A DNA stretch of 36,829 bases from an uncultured Patescibacteria group bacterium (lineage in GTDB: Bacteria > Patescibacteriota > Patescibacteriia > Veblenbacterales > UBA10138). The notes below the pieces were generated by a model. The model did not search any database, had not been told where the DNA came from, and worked only from the letters and a program-made list of their open reading frames with translations. The DNA is taken from NCBI GenBank assembly GCA_937929825.1, contig CALFUV010000005.1, forward strand, positions 1-36,829, in the 5' to 3' direction. The position numbers were made by a program, and so were the translations under genes. Positions 1 through 28,715 of the stretch are shown here, piece after piece. Positions within the stretch are counted from its first letter, which is position 1, and each line of letters opens with the position of its first letter.

Positions 1-3000
1 TACCCGCGCAGACCAATGTGGGTATCCTGCCGGCGCAAACGGGTAAGAATAGGCGAACCATCAGAATTAACATCTACAGCATAAGCTGAAGCAATCTGTG
101 AAGGCTGAAGACTATAAAACAGATTATCGCCGTTAGCATAAGTAAGGCGGGAATAAGAACACTCACAAACTTCATCTTTTTGGCAGGCATAAGCATCGCT
201 AAAGCCTGAACTCATTGATTTGGGTTTTTCAATATAATACGGTGAGTTTGGATCTGGGCATCCGGTTGTCCCCGGAGCATTAACACAAGCTGGGGTATAT
301 TCTTTAACCACCCCCTGAGGAAAAGGCGAATCTGTCTGCGGATAAGCACGGCAAATTTTAGGTTTAGTATTTTCCAAAGAATCCCCCGGACCATTGCTGG
401 TTAAGCCCAAATCTTCATATTGGCAAACATAACTATTGTCTTGATAAGCGCAGGGGGCACCAATGGTATTACAAGGTGTACCATTATAAAAACCACCGCA
501 AGTTTTTTTATCAGGATGCAAATAAGTAAGCCTGATATCGCTGTTGCCTTGAGTACCGTATTCTTTTTGCACTAGCGTTTCAACAGGGAAAATATTAGGC
601 AGGGAATAACCCGAATATTCCTGACTGCTCCAATCCAACCCGCGTTCCTTATATTTTGATTCATTTAAAGGAGTAGCCAAAAGTGGCGGCTGAACCCAAT
701 TGGCACAACGCCCAGTAGCATTATTTCCAGTGCCCAACTGATTGCAGGCACCAAGAGCATAACAAATAGAATCAAACCTGCCTGTTTGTGAATTAAAACG
801 CGGGCTCTCGCTTTGACAAGCCAGCCATTCAGAACAAATTCTATCACGCCGCACCTTCAAAACCAGATTAGTATCAGCCACATAGCAAATACCGTTGTCT
901 GTACCACAATCTGCATTTTTAATACAAGAAATGGCTTGATTTAAAGAACATTTGCCCGGCAAAGTCGCTGAGACCGGCGCTACTAGCTTGTTATTAGCAT
1001 CGCGGCTATCAATATAAGTATTAATGGCACTCCAATTATTAGCAGGCTGTGACATTTCATTAAACAGCAAACAACCCTCTTTTTCGCTTACCTGCCCGGC
1101 GCATAAACCCTTGTTTAAAGCGGTATTATTCAAATACCAATAGGTTTTATTAGTAAGCACAGGATCGCGATAGCCAGTACACCCCACCTCACTAGAAGAA
1201 CATTCGTAAGCATAAGTTATAGCCGCCTGCTCCAAAATAATACGTCTAAGTTCGTTTTCGTCATAATTTTGAACATTCACTCCTGATAATATCTCCACCG
1301 CCTCTACCTGATCCACAAAAATATCATTATTGGCTGAACTTTCTAATTGAATTTTTACAAGCGGTACAGAGGTAGCTTGAACTTTATATACCCGATACAA
1401 TAATAACCACTGATTACGGGGCGTATTAGAATTTATAACTAATTGGAAATTACCACCATAATTAGTACAGGTTGTATTTTGACAGTTCACACTAAGAGTA
1501 ATAGTACCGGTAGTCGCATTTTCCGGTATACGTACACGGGCGTAAGTTGCCAAAAAACGAGAGTCTGCCGATGCTAATGCTATTAAATCACTTCTAACAA
1601 TATTGGTAGCGGAAGGCAGGCGTAAAACAGTTGATCCCCAATACTGACCATTAAATGATGGTACTGCCTCCAACGGATTGGTGGAAGGAAATGAAGACCA
1701 GCCTACGAATGTATCGGCATTACCGTCATTAACTTCGCCGTTAGCTAAAATCTCAAAACTTGGATTTTTTACTAAATTACAAAGCTGGTTAGTGCCTTTT
1801 TTATACCAGTTGTAACCTACTGAACTATCAATAATTTTATATTCACAAACTTTTTCTCCCGGATCTTTAAAGTAATTAGTTACACCGCCAGGGCTGGTAT
1901 AGACTTGGCACATATTTGAAACTGATGAGCACAATGGGCTGGCAGTCAAATTTACTCCGGGATCAAAAGTATCGGGATTAAGTACAGTAAAGATATCACT
2001 CCAAGAGGAAATCTCGCCTGAGGGCAAATAATTTGGCAGGCCCAAACGTTTACAGCCAATAAATTGGTTGGAACAGGATTTATTAGTATCGTAAACCCTA
2101 TAAACCACATTATCTTTGGGAATCTGAACCGTTTGATCACCTACAGTTACAGACATATTCTGCGGTGAAACAGAATTATGAGTATCAACCAAAGCACGAC
2201 AACCTACCACCTCAGCCCGACAAATTTTACTAAAGCCAGTAAGGTGTATGGTTTGTCGGTCACGTGTAGTGTAAGCAGAACAACGCAAGGTAGCTGGAGT
2301 GCAGGTGCTGGGCGTATTCCAAGAATTTTTCCGTACAAAGAAAGTATCCTGCACTTCACGCAGGGCTATATTATCAAAATACACAATTTGCAGAGCTGTT
2401 GAAGCTATAGTTAAATTTATTGGACCCGCATCATTCAAAGTAAATTCAATTGGTCCAAAATTAAATATTTGCCAGTCAGTAGTAATTGGATAAGGAGACT
2501 CAGTAAAAAGATTAGCCTCAGATCCTTTGGTGATTCCCACAACAATCTGTGAGTTTGTTTCTCCTTTTACCCACATACTAACCATATATTGTTTACCTGT
2601 GGTTAATAAACCGGTTAAATCTTTATTCGATACATTAGTTATTTTTAATGAATGTCCGGTAGCAGAAGTTGATTCATTAGAATTAGTGCCACCTACCCAA
2701 CCGGAAAGCGGCCTGGAATCAGCATTCACCCCGGGCTCCGCATCACCAAAAGTGGAAATAGGGAAAACCAATCGTACATTACCAGCGGTCGGGCCTCGAT
2801 ATTCACGGCAACCAACTGCTTGCGCTGAACAAACCTTGCCTTGATTAGGTATGGCGCGGTAATAACAACGCCCTGCCTCCCAAACTCCACCAGAAGTAGC
2901 ACAATCAGCCTCAACAACATTAGTGGCGCGATAACGGTTGCATAAAGAAGAAGAATAAATTACCTTACTTTCATAACGTAAATGAACTACTACATCACTG

Positions 3001-5711
3001 CCCGAAGTAGCATAGAATTCCTTACAATCAGGATTAGTAATGGCGTTCAATTCACAAGAACCTGAACCGTCGGTGGTTAAGGGTGGCGACAAGGGATCTG
3101 AAATATCTAAAGCGGCTAACTGCCATGTTTTAAGCTGATAGCCAGTAAGATCAGAACCAACCCAAGTATAATAAGTATTAGCTAAATTATCTTCAGGCCG
3201 CACGCACTGCCTAAGCTCAATATAGTACTCACGACGCTCGTTCTGCTCTATATTGGTAAACTCCTCGCAACCTACCTGCGCGGCTGAACATTTTTGACCG
3301 CTCGCTGGAATAAAATTAAAAGTCGGCTCTGTATTATTTGGCGGTGTGCGTAGGGAAAAATTTTCAAAGAAGGAACTAGTTTGCTGATAAGTATTAAAGC
3401 CCGCGCATTCTCCGGGACAAATATTAGCCGCTTCCACCCTGCCCGGCACAGCCGGCGAACCGTCACGGGGAGTATAAAGCTCACAACCTACTTCATTCTC
3501 GGCACACATTTTTAAATAATTAGCACATTCCGGAGCATCATTCTCCAAATTAGCATCATAACAATTAAGATAATCCGGTGCTTGGCGCAGAGAAACATTA
3601 ATTGGTGTAGCTAACTCGCCATATACTTTATAAGTAGAGCCATCAGTTACTAAATCAACCACATCCTTTACCTGCTGAACATAGGGTGGTGGACTGTCAC
3701 TGCCATATAAAATATCGGTGCTGATATTGGATAGCTGAATAAATCTGGTACAGCCCTCCTGATTAGAGGCGCATTTCCTGTTCTCTATATTTTTTAAGTA
3801 AAATATAGGGGGTGTATTTGGTGTTGCTAATGTAAAATCAACTGTATTTACATTAGCTTGCGTACCAATATTTCTTTTATGTGGCAAATAAATATCTGCG
3901 CCTTTTTCTTCCGGATCAGGATTAATATTACGGGCAGCTGAATACCAACGGCAAGAAACTGCATCGGAACAAACACCATCATTATAATTGGTTAAAGAAT
4001 TAGCCAAATAATTATTTGTTTTACCGGCTTTGTTTGTAAAACTTTGACAAGTTCCCCAAGGACTCACCCCCGATCCTTCTGGAAACTCACAACTTTTTCC
4101 TGATAACCGCCAAATATTTTGTTCTCTTTTGCAATAACCCCAAGCTTCACAAGTGCCATCAGCTTTTTCGGCAATACAATGCTGGAAGTCAACACAAGCA
4201 GTCTGACGATTAGGGCCGCGCGGCTCTAATAATTGACCATAGGCTTCTATGCGGCACTGAGCCGGCGGCGCGCGTAAAACCCAATTGGGATCTATAAGAC
4301 CGCAAAAAGGACTTTCGCCAGCATCTCCATCGCCACAAATTTTGTTGCCGCCGGTAGAATTAAATCCTTCCATCACTTGCCGTAAAGTAATCGGTTGACC
4401 AGCAAACTTTTCTGCCGCCAATTCCCAACCAACCGGAATAATACGAGCTAATCTTAATTTTTTTAAATCAGATAAATACCAAGCTTTGGTAGGAGAACGA
4501 ACGTCATCTGTAGTACGCACTAAAGCAAAACGTAAATTACCATCTATAAAACCTTGTTCAATAGCTTCTTTAACTGTTAAGGGTGTTCCTTGGTTGGCCT
4601 TACGCAAAGCCTCGGCAAATTTAGATGTAATAGTACAATTATTAATTGGGGTATAAAAATTGGGGTTGGAAGGACAATTCGCGAACTGGCTAATAATATC
4701 CACCATACCAGTGCTGTTGACCAGCTGAACAGTGGAAATAGAACTGTTTACTTGAACGGCATACTCCACCCCAGCACCACTGGAAGAAGCCCATTTACCT
4801 GATTCAATCAATGAAGGCGCTGGTACTGTACCTTCCAATAATCGCTTCATTAATCTTGCTCCCAAAGTATTAGTAAATACACCTAAAGCATCCGCAATAA
4901 CGTCACCGGTAAAATCGCCAAATTCACCCAAACCAAGATTTATACGCGTATTCATAAGCGACTGTATTTCCTTGGCCGGTGTTTTTACAAAACCGGTAAT
5001 TGGCTCAACTATTGGATTTATAAAATCAAGAGCGGCGGTTTCGGCTGCTTTGGAAGCGGCCTCTTGCGTAGACTTGGTAACTATATTTTGTTGTAAAGCA
5101 AGAGCAATGCCAAGATCATTCTGTCTTGGGTCAAGCACAAAACCAATATTATGTAAAACATTAGGATCTCTAATTAGCTGCTGCCAGTTTTTTTGCATTT
5201 CACTCCAAGTACAACGCGGCTGACGCGGCTTTATTTCATTGAACATGGAAAAACCAATAATCAACTCAACCTGTGGCGCTGATGGTCGACAAACATCTAA
5301 ACCAATTATATTAGATTCTCTGGCCCAAGAATCAATAAAATCGCCGGCGGCGGCATCTCTGGCTCTTTTTTCAACATCACCTAATCTTCGCCAAGTAAAA
5401 GCTGGAGTCTGGCCTGTGCCGCCGGAACCAATCATAACTGCTGATTCGTAGGCAATATTTGTTAAGTAAGTTCGCAAAGCATTTTTATAAGCCACCGCTC
5501 CGCCATGTTTCCAGGCCCATTCAGCTGCGGTTTGAATTTGTTCCCACACCCATGAGGCAGCGCTGGCTATATCCTGTACAATCCACTGGGCGTAAACAGG
5601 TCGTGGAGTTAAAGAAACTAACGAAACAGAAAGAGCTAATACTATACTTAAAAAAGCAGCTGATAAACGACGATGGATTTTATGATTACGGCGACTGATT
5701 TGGTGATTCAT
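1..5711 (-). CDS. Giant Cys-rich secreted protein with carbohydrate-binding-like modules (C-terminus outside window)
   Basis: I followed this frame from the ATG at 5711 to position 1 and found no stop, so 1903 codons are visible and the gene continues past the left edge. The N-terminus has basic residues, then a hydrophobic stretch ending in VYA-Q near residue 30, which looks like a signal peptide. Residues about 30-480 look helical and Cys-poor. The rest is Cys-rich and repeats a motif of form C-x5-G-C near residues 646, 735, 807, 961, 1163, 1219 and 1503. Two beta-rich regions (about 984-1100 and 1314-1474, the second opening with NPSFE) resemble CBM4/9-type jelly-roll modules. The gene follows the thrombospondin-repeat gene by about 95 nt and probably shares its promoter. 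It is inferred to be an exported surface protein; ligand and partner are unknown. Confidence 0.85.
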   Translation of the reverse strand, partial: MNHQISRRNHKIHRRLSAAFLSIVLALSVSLVSLTPRPVYAQWIVQDIASAASWVWEQIQTAAEWAWKHGGAVAYKNALRTYLTNIAYESAVMIGSGGTGQTPAFTWRRLGDVEKRARDAAAGDFIDSWARESNIIGLDVCRPSAPQVELIIGFSMFNEIKPRQPRCTWSEMQKNWQQLIRDPNVLHNIGFVLDPRQNDLGIALALQQNIVTKSTQEAASKAAETAALDFINPIVEPITGFVKTPAKEIQSLMNTRINLGLGEFGDFTGDVIADALGVFTNTLGARLMKRLLEGTVPAPSLIESGKWASSSGAGVEYAVQVNSSISTVQLVNSTGMVDIISQFANCPSNPNFYTPINNCTITSKFAEALRKANQGTPLTVKEAIEQGFIDGNLRFALVRTTDDVRSPTKAWYLSDLKKLRLARIIPVGWELAAEKFAGQPITLRQVMEGFNSTGGNKICGDGDAGESPFCGLIDPNWVLRAPPAQCRIEAYGQLLEPRGPNRQTACVDFQHCIAEKADGTCEAWGYCKREQNIWRLSGKSCEFPEGSGVSPWGTCQSFTNKAGKTNNYLANSLTNYNDGVCSDAVSCRWYSAARNINPDPEEKGADIYLPHKRNIGTQANVNTVDFTLATPNTPPIFYLKNIENRKCASNQEGCTRFIQLSNISTDILYGSDSPPPYVQQVKDVVDLVTDGSTYKVYGELATPINVSLRQAPDYLNCYDANLENDAPECANYLKMCAENEVGCELYTPRDGSPAVPGRVEAANICPGECAGFNTYQQTSSFFENFSLRTPPNNTEPTFNFIPASGQKCSAAQVGCEEFTNIEQNERREYYIELRQCVRPEDNLANTYYTWVGSDLTGYQLKTWQLAALDISDPLSPPLTTDGSGSCELNAITNPDCKEFYATSGSDVVVHLRYESKVIYSSSLCNRYRATNVVEADCATSGGVWEAGRCYYRAIPNQGKVCSAQAVGCREYRGPTAGNVRLVFPISTFGDAEPGVNADSRPLSGWVGGTNSNESTSATGHSLKITNVSNKDLTGLLTTGKQYMVSMWVKGETNSQIVVGITKGSEANLFTESPYPITTDWQIFNFGPIEFTLNDAGPINLTIASTALQIVYFDNIALREVQDTFFVRKNSWNTPSTCTPATLRCSAYTTRDRQTIHLTGFSKICRAEVVGCRALVDTHNSVSPQNMSVTVGDQTVQIPKDNVVYRVYDTNKSCSNQFIGCKRLGLPNYLPSGEISSWSDIFTVLNPDTFDPGVNLTASPLCSSVSNMCQVYTSPGGVTNYFKDPGEKVCEYKIIDSSVGYNWYKKGTNQLCNLVKNPSFEILANGEVNDGNADTFVGWSSFPSTNPLEAVPSFNGQYWGSTVLRLPSATNIVRSDLIALASADSRFLATYARVRIPENATTGTITLSVNCQNTTCTNYGGNFQLVINSNTPRNQWLLLYRVYKVQATSVPLVKIQLESSANNDIFVDQVEAVEILSGVNVQNYDENELRRIILEQAAITYAYECSSSEVGCTGYRDPVLTNKTYWYLNNTALNKGLCAGQVSEKEGCLLFNEMSQPANNWSAINTYIDSRDANNKLVAPVSATLPGKCSLNQAISCIKNADCGTDNGICYVADTNLVLKVRRDRICSEWLACQSESPRFNSQTGRFDSICYALGACNQLGTGNNATGRCANWVQPPLLATPLNESKYKERGLDWSSQEYSGYSLPNIFPVETLVQKEYGTQGNSDIRLTYLHPDKKTCGGFYNGTPCNTIGAPCAYQDNSYVCQYEDLGLTSNGPGDSLENTKPKICRAYPQTDSPFPQGVVKEYTPACVNAPGTTGCPDPNSPYYIEKPKSMSSGFSDAYACQKDEVCECSYSRLTYANGDNLFYSLQPSQIASAYAVDVNSDGSPILTRLRRQDTHIGLRG

Positions 5712-9465: not shown

Positions 9466-12339
9466 TTACTCAATCACTAAATTAATTAGTTTATCGGGCA
9501 CATATATAATCCTTTTAATATTTTTACCAATCAAATACTTGGACACAGGCTCTAATTTTTTTGCCCAGTCAATTACTTCCACCTCATTAAGACCGGCTGT
9601 CAATAATAGCTGCCCCCTAAGTTTGCCATTTACCTGTACGGCTATATTAACTTTGTTTAATTGTAAAGCTTGAGGGTTGTATTCCGGCCAAGGCTGCTGC
9701 CAAATTTGCCCCGGTCGCTCTAATTGTTCCCAAAGCTCACAAGCTAAATGAGGGGCAAAAGGATAAACCAATTGCAACAGCAGATCTGTAACTTTTTGCT
9801 GGTTAATAGCCGGTAAAGTAACTTTAAACAAATAATTCACAAATTCCATAAGTGCGGCAATGGCGGTATTAAAACGAAAAGTTACAATATCATCTGTTAC
9901 TTTTTTGGTGGTTTTTGACATCCAATAAGACAGTTCTTGTTCTTTATCTGCTGATAAATCAACTAAGTGATTGATTTTTGGTGTCAGGGCTAATTGCCAA
10001 ACTTTTTCCAAAAAACGCCTAACTCCAATAATAGAAGTAGTATTCCATGGTTTGGCGTCTTCTAAGGGACCCATAAACATTTCATAAAGCCTAAAAGTGT
10101 CGGCGCCATATTTTTCTACTATTTCATCAGGATTAATCACATTACCACGAGATTTGGACATTTTTTGCCCGTCTTCGCCTAAGATTAATCCTTGATTTCT
10201 AAGTTTCAAAAATGGTTCAGAAAAATTAACATATCCCAAATCCCGTAAAACCTTAGTAAAGAATCGAGCATACAATAGATGCATAACCGCATGCTCCGCC
10301 CCGCCTACATAAAAATCTACCGGGCACCAAATATCAATTTTTTTCTTGTCAAAAATTTCTTCGGTATTATGTGGATCGCAATAACGTAAAAAATACCAAG
10401 AAGAATCCACAAAGGTATCCATGGTGTCGCTTTCACGTCTAGCAGCTGCCGCACACTGAGGACAAGAAACATTTTGAAAACTTACGGAACGCACTAAGGG
10501 CGATTCGCCCGTAGGCTTAAAATCAACATCGTCAGGCAACAAGACCGGCAAATCTTTTTCTGGTACCGGAACTTCACCACACTGATTACAATAAATAATA
10601 GGAATAGGCGCCCCCCAGTAACGCTGACGACTAATAAGCCAATCGTGTAACTTATACTGAGTAGTTAATTGTGCTTTTATTTTTTTAGCTATCGCCGGAA
10701 TAGCGGCGGCTGATTCCATGCCCGAAAATTCATCTGAATTCCACAATATACCTTCGCCAGTATAAATATAATCTGAATTTGCCAAGAAATTTTCCGTAAA
10801 TTTACCTTCTATGACTGAAAGGAAATTTTTTAAATTATTACGTTTAATCCATAATACTTCATGAAGTGACTCCTCCTGAATATTAATAGGATCTTTTTCT
10901 TCATTTTCCAGTTCAAAAAATAAATACTGGAATCTGGCATGCCTGTTTTGTTTTTTTACCCGATGGTAAAAAAAACTATGTAAAGCAAATTCGGGATTAC
11001 TCACCAAACGAACATTCTTATACCCTGTTTCTTCATGAATCTCCCGCTTGGCCGCCGCCACAATATCCTCACCTTCTTCTACTCCACCGGTAATAAAACC
11101 ATGCATAATAAAATGTTTCCAACTAACACATAAATATGAATCGTCCTTGGGATTACGCACCACACAACAAACTGCATTTCTTTTTACCGTTTCTTCTTGA
11201 GGACGAAATGCTTCCTCGCCTTCAGTAGCTACAAATTTAGGTTCAACCACACGCCTAATTGGCAGATTAAATTTTTTAGCAAAAGCAAAATCCCTTTCAT
11301 CATGAGCCGGTACGGCCATAATAGCGCCGGTACCATAACTGCCCAACACATAATCGGCTACCCAAACAGGAATTTCCTCCCCAGTTGCCGGATTAATAAC
11401 CTTAATCCCTGTCTCCACGCCGGTTTTTTCTTTAACTGCTCTCTCTACCCTTTCTAATTCTCGTCCTTTAAGAGATTCATGTACATAAATTATTATACCT
11501 TCATTAGCCTGCCAGCCGGCTTCAATCCACTTCTTGGCAAGTTCCGGGGAGATAACTATAAAAGTAGCTCCATAAATAGTATCAAGACGTGTGGTAAATA
11601 TCTCAATCTCTTGAATTTTAAATTTAATATTGGAAATTGGAAATTTTATCACGGCACCCTGACTGGCTCCAATCCAATTACGCTGCATTTCCTTAAGCGA
11701 TTCAGGCCAATCTAATTTATCCAGGTCGCACAATAACTCATCAGCGTAATCGGTAATCTTGAAAAACCATTGTTTCATATTTCTTTGCTCAACTTCTGTT
11801 TTGCAGCGTTCACATTTTCTATCTACTACTTGTTCATTTGCCAATACTGTTTGACATGATGGACACCAATTAACCGGCGCTAGAGCGCGATACGCCAACC
11901 CTTTTTTATAAAATTGCAAAAAAAGCCATTGAGTCCAACGGTAATAGTCTGGTGAAGATGTGTTTATTTCACGCGACCAGTCATAGGAAAAACCCAACGA
12001 TTTAATTTGCCGTCTAATATTGTTGATATTTTCTTCAGTGGTTAAACGCGGATGCCGTCCACTTTTAATAGCATAATTTTCCGCCGGCAAACCAAAAGCA
12101 TCCCAACCCATAGGATGTAACACTTCCACACCCTTCATACGCAAATATCGACAATAAATATCTGTGGCAGTATAACCTTCTGGATGTCCAACATGCAGCC
12201 CTTGGCCGGAAGGATAAGGAAACATATCTAAAATATAAGACTTCTCTTGATTGGGCTTATCTTTAGCTACAAAAATATTTTTTTCTTCCCAGATTTTTTG
12301 CCACTTTTCTTCTATTTTCTTATGATCGTATAATATCAT
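9466..12339 (-). CDS. leuS: Leucyl-tRNA synthetase with an inserted Nudix hydrolase domain
   Basis: The enzyme charges tRNA-Leu. The class I signatures are HVGH (residues 49-52) and KMSKS (726-730). A zinc-binding cluster lies at 159-179 (CPSC, CERC) and a second Cys pair set at 584-629. The CP1 editing domain keeps the Thr-rich stretch TTRLDTIYGATF and the discriminating Asp in VPAHDERD (D347). Instead of the usual short linker between the end of the editing core and YTGEG (526-530), about 140 residues (roughly 372-515) form a Nudix domain with a full Nudix box at 418-440 matching G-x5-E-x7-R-E-U-x-E-E-x-G-U. The total of 957 residues exceeds the usual 800-870 by about that amount. The frame is continuous, so this is a true fusion. 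It heads leuS-tsaC-MFS-rsmA. Confidence 0.97.
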   Translation of the reverse strand: MILYDHKKIEEKWQKIWEEKNIFVAKDKPNQEKSYILDMFPYPSGQGLHVGHPEGYTATDIYCRYLRMKGVEVLHPMGWDAFGLPAENYAIKSGRHPRLTTEENINNIRRQIKSLGFSYDWSREINTSSPDYYRWTQWLFLQFYKKGLAYRALAPVNWCPSCQTVLANEQVVDRKCERCKTEVEQRNMKQWFFKITDYADELLCDLDKLDWPESLKEMQRNWIGASQGAVIKFPISNIKFKIQEIEIFTTRLDTIYGATFIVISPELAKKWIEAGWQANEGIIIYVHESLKGRELERVERAVKEKTGVETGIKVINPATGEEIPVWVADYVLGSYGTGAIMAVPAHDERDFAFAKKFNLPIRRVVEPKFVATEGEEAFRPQEETVKRNAVCCVVRNPKDDSYLCVSWKHFIMHGFITGGVEEGEDIVAAAKREIHEETGYKNVRLVSNPEFALHSFFYHRVKKQNRHARFQYLFFELENEEKDPINIQEESLHEVLWIKRNNLKNFLSVIEGKFTENFLANSDYIYTGEGILWNSDEFSGMESAAAIPAIAKKIKAQLTTQYKLHDWLISRQRYWGAPIPIIYCNQCGEVPVPEKDLPVLLPDDVDFKPTGESPLVRSVSFQNVSCPQCAAAARRESDTMDTFVDSSWYFLRYCDPHNTEEIFDKKKIDIWCPVDFYVGGAEHAVMHLLYARFFTKVLRDLGYVNFSEPFLKLRNQGLILGEDGQKMSKSRGNVINPDEIVEKYGADTFRLYEMFMGPLEDAKPWNTTSIIGVRRFLEKVWQLALTPKINHLVDLSADKEQELSYWMSKTTKKVTDDIVTFRFNTAIAALMEFVNYLFKVTLPAINQQKVTDLLLQLVYPFAPHLACELWEQLERPGQIWQQPWPEYNPQALQLNKVNIAVQVNGKLRGQLLLTAGLNEVEVIDWAKKLEPVSKYLIGKNIKRIIYVPDKLINLVIE

Positions 12340-28027: not shown

Positions 28028-28102
28028 TGGAGCGGGTAGGGGGAGTCGAACCCCCGTCATCAGTTTGGAAAACTGAGATAATAACCGTTATACGATACCC
28101 GC
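28028..28102 (-). tRNA. tRNA-Gly (TCC), CCA encoded
   Basis: Acceptor 28096-28102 pairs with 28032-28038; anticodon loop TTTCCAA gives TCC. Discriminator T and encoded CCA are present. Its first base overlaps the last base of the stop codon of the 57-aa ORF. Confidence 0.94.
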
Positions 28103-28275
28103 TAATCTTTTTTAAAACTCCAATTTATTATTGTTTGTTGTTTATCAAACAAATCCTGCTTAAGTAATATATTAAAATCTTTACCTGTTCTTAAACTTTC
28201 ACTATAAAGCCACATACCATACCCCAAAAACAATACTAACAAAAAAATTATAACTGCTAATAAATGCTTTCCCAT
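28102..28275 (-). CDS. Small single-helix membrane protein inside the tRNA operon, 57 residues
   Basis: Between tRNA-Phe and tRNA-Gly on the same strand an ATG (28275) opens 57 codons to TAG at 28102-28104. The product has a basic start, one transmembrane helix (about 5-20, LLAVIIFLLVLFLGYGMWLY) and a charged C-terminal tail (GKDFNILLKQDLFDKQQTIINWSFKKD). Its composition is that of a real membrane protein. The stop codon touches the first base of tRNA-Gly, so tRNA processing would cut at the end of the reading frame. No family is recognised. Confidence 0.55.
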   Translation of the reverse strand: MGKHLLAVIIFLLVLFLGYGMWLYSESLRTGKDFNILLKQDLFDKQQTIINWSFKKD

Positions 28276-28296
28276 ATATTTAAGTGATCATCAAGG

Positions 28297-28368
28297 TGCC
28301 GCGGGTCAGAATCGAACTGACGACGCCAGCCTCTTCAGGGCTGCGCTCTACCACTGAGCTACCGCGGC
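28297..28368 (-). tRNA. tRNA-Phe (GAA), CCA not encoded
   Basis: Acceptor GCCGCGG/CCGCGGC, anticodon loop CTGAAGA giving GAA, T-loop TTCGATT and discriminator A are all visible. The next bases read CCT, not CCA, so a CCA-adding enzyme is required. Confidence 0.94.
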
Positions 28369-28418
28369 ACGCTGCCGATCACATAATTATTATAATTTTT
28401 ATTATATTATAAAAAAGC

Positions 28419-28495
28419 TGGTCGGGGTACTGGGACTTGAACCCAGGACCTCCTGCTCCCAAAGCAGGCGCGCTAGCCAACTGCGCTATACCCCG
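28419..28495 (-). tRNA. tRNA-Pro (TGG), CCA encoded
   Basis: Acceptor CGGGGTA pairs with TACCCCG; the anticodon loop TTTGGGA gives TGG. Discriminator A is followed by an encoded CCA. Confidence 0.95.
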
Positions 28496-28499
28496 AGTT

Positions 28500-28575
28500 T
28501 GGTGGGTCGTACAGGACTCGAACCTGTAACCAACTGCTTAAGAGGCAGCTGCTCTACCACTTGAGCTAACGACCC
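28500..28575 (-). tRNA. tRNA-Lys (CTT), CCA encoded
   Basis: Acceptor GGGTCGT pairs with ACGACCC; the anticodon loop CTCTTAA gives CTT. Discriminator A and CCA are encoded. It is 4 nt from tRNA-Pro. Confidence 0.94.
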
Positions 28576-28607
28576 TTTTAAATAATTTAAAATAATTTAC
28601 GAATCCT

Positions 28608-28679
28608 TGCCCCCGGAGGGATTCGAACCCCCAATAGCTGGTCCGAAGCCAGCCGTGATATCCATTTCACCACAGGGGC
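28608..28679 (-). tRNA. tRNA-Arg (TCG), CCA not encoded
   Basis: Acceptor GCCCCTG pairs with CGGGGGC; anticodon stem GCTGG/CCAGC with loop CTTCGGA gives TCG. The bases after discriminator A are AGG, so CCA is added post-transcriptionally. It is first in the tRNA operon. Confidence 0.94.
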
Positions 28680-28715
28680 ATAAATTAAAGAACTTATTTA
28701 ACTAAGAGCTAGCCC

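Follow-up and report, generated by a model that had tools for sequence, protein, structure and literature searches.

The locus analysed here raises the question why the leucyl-tRNA synthetase (LeuRS) of an uncultured Patescibacteria group bacterium contains a Nudix hydrolase domain, and whether this domain acts as an enzyme, serves as a structural accessory or is simply carried along. The gene, leuS, lies at 9466..12339 on the minus strand of the window, the whole stretch of 36,829 nucleotides under analysis, and all its features given below are on the same strand. Its open reading frame, assigned with Pfam and NCBIfam, starts with ATG and runs for 957 codons without an internal stop. The initial annotation had described an intact frame that keeps both synthetase and editing motifs, and this holds: the HIGH-type motif HVGH (residues 49-52, 12184..12195), the threonine-rich TTRLDT (249-254, 11578..11595) and AVPAHDERD (342-350, 11290..11316) of the editing site, and KMSKS (726-730, 10150..10164) were all found intact in a motif check. 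Together with the match to the NCBIfam model leuS_bact (TIGR00396; 1039.8 bits, cut-off 548.4), which the insert breaks into two pieces, the HIGH, KMSKS and CP1 editing motifs identify the protein as a bacterial LeuRS. Pfam places the editing domain (PF13603) at residues 220-371 and the anticodon-binding domain (Anticodon_1) at residues 807-918, and the full-length AlphaFold model is confident (pLDDT 90.5). leuS is apparently the sole LeuRS gene of its genome (G000; 0.8 Mb, 98% complete), whose two TIGR00396 matches are halves of one frame; we therefore predict that the protein both leucylates and edits. Elsewhere, the window holds five clustered tRNA genes (Gly, Phe, Pro, Lys, Arg; 28028-28680, minus strand), further genes for tRNA-Arg, tRNA-His and tRNA-Ser, and an open frame for a large protein of at least 1903 aa that runs off the left end (3-5711, minus strand).

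Compared with a core LeuRS HMM, the protein carries 147 additional residues at a single position, and residues 372-527 (10759..11226) were taken as the inserted segment for domain modelling. The Nudix profile search proposed by the initial annotation bore out its main claim, a Nudix domain inserted into LeuRS at 10795-11240: Pfam NUDIX (PF00293) matches residues 386-506 (about 10822..11184), within that interval, at 57.7 bits against a cut-off of 21.1 (E=1.6e-15), and matches the isolated segment with E=7e-17. The Nudix box, GGVEEGEDIVAAAKREIHEETGY, is complete as claimed (GX5EX7REUXEEXGU; residues 418-440, 11020..11088), with E433, E436 and E437 as putative metal ligands and a tyrosine at its final position, as in almost the entire family of embedded domains. 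Downstream, FFYHRVKKQNR (residues 456-466, 10942..10974) includes the aromatic residues 16-18 positions past the box as well as K..NR, a signature of the embedded subfamily. AlphaFold models the isolated domain confidently (pLDDT 92.2), and its Foldseek neighbours are structures of NudI, RppH and Ap4A/Ap6A hydrolases at E values around 1e-7 (best 4e-8); neighbours found by PDB profile likewise include Ap4A hydrolases. The insert is thus a real and intact Nudix domain, with both the box and the alpha/beta/alpha fold of the superfamily (Pfam, AlphaFold, Foldseek). It passes none of the NCBIfam equivalog models for Nudix Ap4A hydrolase, RppH or NudI (best 29.2 bits against cut-offs of 95-169). 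Only one further Nudix domain is encoded in the genome; its box, QFPQGGIEKGES, is RppH-like, and the domain follows an apparent 2H phosphoesterase (ThpR/LigT-like) in a 367-aa frame (L001:1426-2526:-), and related 334-aa frames occur in genomes G382 and G383.

In an alignment with Thermus thermophilus LeuRS, homology is unbroken as far as residue 364 of that protein and resumes at its residue 376, so that the insert replaces a short CP1 loop near the C-terminal end of CP1. This refines the initial annotation, which had the insert in place of the short linker between the editing core of CP1 and the return to the catalytic domain: the site lies inside CP1 and not after it.

A survey of other LeuRS proteins for insertions, likewise suggested at the outset, revealed that the architecture recurs across the phylum. 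A profile built from 20 embedded domains was searched against 380 genomes of the phylum and gave at least 47 matches better than 1e-26, of which 46 lie within long synthetase frames and one is free-standing (G280, L025, 182 aa). Counting weaker matches after a check of the frame, at least 51 of the 380 genomes, including the host, carry the Nudix domain in LeuRS, almost always at the same CP1 site (site B); at least one genome carries it in ValRS (G159, L175) and at least one in IleRS (G281, L176). Among 359 genomes of three other phyla (120, 119 and 120) there was no match at 1e-15 or 1e-12, which speaks for rarity elsewhere and not for absence. A scan of IMG/VR for a viral origin returned just 14 weak partial matches, and a scan of wider genome contigs recovered mostly LeuRS without the insert, plus three with the insert whose frames are identical to those of the sampled genomes. 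Since at least 50 other sampled genomes share the architecture, neither chance nor faulty assembly accounts for it. The precise insertion into an essential gene, with a sister species lacking the insert, might suggest an intein, an intron-like element or a faulty assembly, in which case the segment would be removed or unreal. Against this stand the open frame, the same architecture in about 50 independent assemblies and the selection acting on the insert at the amino-acid level. Moreover, Pfam finds no intein family, and the boundary residues are unfit for splicing (Cys/Ser...His-Asn); we rejected this explanation, whose chances are close to nil.

The distribution of the domain on the LeuRS tree is strikingly patchy. 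Mapped on a tree of 106 LeuRS cores, Nudix at site B requires 30 changes between presence and absence, at least 24 of them forced by well-supported branches; this count is a guide, as the tree was quick and the sample enriched for long frames. It is incompatible with one ancestral insertion that was passed on vertically and never lost or exchanged. Within the genus of the host, G380 has a short linker in place of the domain, although the N-terminal part of its LeuRS is 77% identical to that of the host, and G386 is a further close relative without it. G384 and G385, from the same family, carry an alpha/beta serine hydrolase (PF06821) at the identical site, while G056 has both Nudix and HAD at site B and its genus-mate G256 has HAD alone. 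The CP1 site behaves like a cassette slot, and the patchy presence shows that LeuRS function does not in general depend on the activity. The same data bear on whether the Nudix fold could be a module for tRNA or protein contacts whose catalysis is dispensable. CP1 takes the tRNA 3′ end for editing, accessory inserts are used by other LeuRS lineages, and the LSD found before KMSKS in T. thermophilus LeuRS is absent from our protein by alignment, all of which would suit such a module. However, close relatives (G380, G386) do without it, unrelated folds take the same site, and the metal-ligand glutamates of the box are some of its most highly conserved residues, so that we regard a purely structural or RNA-binding role as quite unlikely.

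A tree of 103 Nudix domains showed that most of the embedded domains belong together: 58 of 61 fall into one clade (support 98/92), which takes in just two domains that are not embedded (one of these has an in-frame TAG), and the ValRS domain nests among those of LeuRS. The subfamily resides almost exclusively inside synthetases. It is marked by a tryptophan before the box, K..NR after it and the lack of a proline before the GG of the box. Separate capture of unrelated Nudix genes in every case is thereby rejected for most of the domains. A single clade of all 61 is likewise rejected (p-AU 3.5e-5), which implies that a few captures were independent. We accept as independent captures the IleRS domain L176, L178/L250 and the MutT-like domain of G390 in L149/L206; the domain of L177 was perhaps captured separately as well. 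The tree also hints at horizontal transfer of the G382 domain, but the AU test does not establish it (p-AU 0.08).

Our analysis further revealed that the Nudix insert is one case of a wider pattern of exchangeable hydrolases in LeuRS, ValRS and IleRS, which the initial annotation, made from one sequence, had not envisaged. Further LeuRS insert sites in the phylum are site A (core position 241), C (about 447-485) and D (583), and the contents of the LeuRS sites include Ser_hydrolase, Ham1, HAD, Nudix and nucleotidyltransferase domains; among the recurring alternatives, those inserts that Pfam can name are hydrolases or nucleotidyltransferases. The LeuRS of G416 (1558 aa) combines Ham1, Nudix, Ser_hydrolase and an extra domain, and that of G003 (L249:1177-6561:+), 1795 aa in one open frame, carries HAD, Ham1, NUDIX and nucleotidyltransferase-like inserts. 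These genomes, like those behind the ValRS and IleRS cases below, were picked partly for long frames, so that they give no frequency. ValRS and IleRS contain histidine phosphatase, Ser_hydrolase, HAD or Nudix. In the host itself, ValRS (L295:258-3380:+ on contig C14, 1041 aa) carries a histidine phosphatase (PF00300, E=3.1e-38) in its catalytic domain, between PF00133 positions 259 and 286, while the IleRS frame has the usual length (974 aa). All inserts in the cases examined sit in LeuRS, ValRS or IleRS, the editing-class synthetases. We tentatively propose that these three enzymes serve in this phylum as systematic hosts for exchangeable, active hydrolase cassettes (Nudix, Ser_hydrolase, Ham1, HAD, histidine phosphatase and, in a few cases, a nucleotidyltransferase), up to four per LeuRS, which would shift from site to site and from one synthetase to another and would shield or clean up their host enzyme in cis; in this general form the proposal is possible but somewhat more apt to fail than to hold.

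Several observations adjoin this survey. The ValRS of G383, a genome of the same family as the host (L296:405-3749:-), has the same histidine phosphatase as that of the host, preceded by about 110 residues that resemble an ASCH/PUA-type domain by eye and have no Pfam name. An IleRS-type synthetase of G243 (L297:1167-5882:+, 1572 aa) contains three His_Phos_1 stretches, and the site A insert in the LeuRS of G319 (L165; 124 aa at core position 241) has no Pfam match. In G329, a Ser_hydrolase match on contig C14 near 152668-152955 lies in an open frame of 24,995 aa, either a giant protein or a peculiarity of the sequence.

Could the insert be a neutral passenger, one of several compact domains with close termini that gather without benefit in insertion-tolerant loops? 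The involvement of several loops and several domain types, together with frequent gain and loss, is what such a process would produce. In three close pairs of genomes, however, dN/dS of the insert is only 0.013, 0.042 and 0.051, compared with 0.025 and 0.116 for the LeuRS core in the two pairs where it could be computed; in these pairs the insert is under protein-level selection at least as strong as that on the synthetase. Between the host and G383, the insert is 73% and the core 67% identical. The putative metal-binding glutamates are kept throughout the embedded domains, with the counterpart of E433 in 61 of 61, that of E436 in 59 and that of E437 in 60. The catalytic residues are thus intact, the inserts come from a palette of few enzyme families, and the Nudix subfamily is almost confined to synthetases. 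The passenger explanation is disfavoured by the dN/dS values, and we consider it very unlikely. Conserved glutamates and low dN/dS (0.01-0.05) rather suggest that the insert is a selected and probably active enzyme.

What would such an enzyme do? Our preferred reading is a bifunctional LeuRS, in which the synthetase and editing core holds within CP1 a folded and, by its residues, catalytically competent Nudix phosphohydrolase. This domain would cleave, in a metal-dependent manner, a compound linked through a nucleoside (poly)phosphate and may thereby act in cis as a clean-up enzyme beside the synthetase. The likeliest substrates would be dinucleoside polyphosphates such as Ap4A, or damaged or inhibitory nucleotides that would otherwise occupy the synthetase. 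Synthetases form Ap4A as a by-product, and this, together with the Ap4A hydrolases among the solved relatives, favours a substrate of the Ap4A type, although NudI and RppH are as near to the insert. The initial annotation had proposed action on mis-made adenylates or Ap4A, or the sensing of a nucleotide; an aminoacyl-adenylate is a less likely substrate, since Nudix enzymes cut pyrophosphate linkages. An aromatic residue, in particular a tyrosine, 16-18 residues past the box is a feature of Ap4A hydrolases; an aromatic is present there in 60 of 61 embedded against 33 of 40 free-standing domains, and a tyrosine in 43 of 61 against 18 of 40, so that the aromatic signature is just slightly commoner in the embedded domains. 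Other hydrolases in the same or other loops of relatives may be alternative answers to the same kind of need, but Ser_hydrolase inserts fit poorly with a purely nucleotide role. Overall, we regard this bifunctional clean-up enzyme, acting on Ap4A, damaged nucleotides or a similar compound, as having an even chance of being correct.

A related explanation is that the inserts provide resistance, destroying nucleotide-like toxins or inhibitors directed against editing-class synthetases, such as agrocin 84-type analogues of leucyl-adenylate and similar compounds, and being exchanged as threats change. This would account for the patchy presence, for the swap between Nudix and alpha/beta hydrolase at one site within one family and for the confinement of the known cases to LeuRS, ValRS and IleRS. 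It would also fit the strong divergence of inserts within a genus: G184 and G041 have cores that are 82% identical and inserts that are only 40% identical, which could reflect either replacement by a related copy or rapid divergence. A precedent comes from histidine-triad enzymes, universal hydrolases that are reported to confer resistance to a peptide-nucleotide antibiotic (PMC7157772). However, the same Nudix subfamily persists over deep lineages with very low dN/dS, and several of the inserts, such as Ham1 and histidine phosphatase, belong to typical housekeeping families. Furthermore, we know of no Nudix resistance gene of this kind. We therefore consider detoxification unlikely.

LeuRS ranks with the most conserved of essential enzymes. 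In these bacteria its editing domain is host, time and again at one site, to what appears from its residues to be an active Nudix hydrolase. Should this activity prove real, it would suggest that small-genome bacteria profit from destroying some nucleotide right beside the synthetase, and the cost of synthetase by-products or inhibitors to the cell becomes a testable question.

The initial annotation knew of no described LeuRS of this type, and our search of papers outside subscription journals likewise turned up no description of LeuRS, ValRS or IleRS with inserted Nudix or other hydrolases; the architecture may already be listed in domain databases. Both the LeuRS-Nudix architecture and the swapping are apparently undescribed. 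The Nudix and LeuRS families are both well known; the greater surprise lies in the cassette-like exchange. Extra CP1 sequence is also found in the alpha/beta LeuRS of Aquifex aeolicus and in eukaryotic and archaeal LeuRS, but these insertions are short or structural and, to our knowledge, none is a known enzyme. With bacterial LeuRS that edit through CP1 (T. thermophilus 1H3N, Escherichia coli 4AQ7, TIGR00396), our protein shares all catalytic and editing motifs and the domain order. In place of the roughly 12-residue loop of T. thermophilus (364-376) it has a 147-aa Nudix domain, and the LSD before KMSKS is missing. The insert shares fold, box and metal-ligand glutamates with Nudix enzymes of the NudI, RppH and Ap4A hydrolase types and has aromatic residues past its box, but differs from them in being embedded in another enzyme, in its own subfamily signatures and in scoring under all equivalog cut-offs. 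Judged by its name, the NCBIfam model NF040702 (IleRS with a GNAT domain) represents another class I synthetase with an added enzyme, albeit one of a different type. Finally, a 2026 survey of domain insertions (PMC13114784) reported the LeuRS editing domain PF13603 as an inserted module only and never as a host, whereas in the protein described here this editing domain is itself interrupted by another domain.
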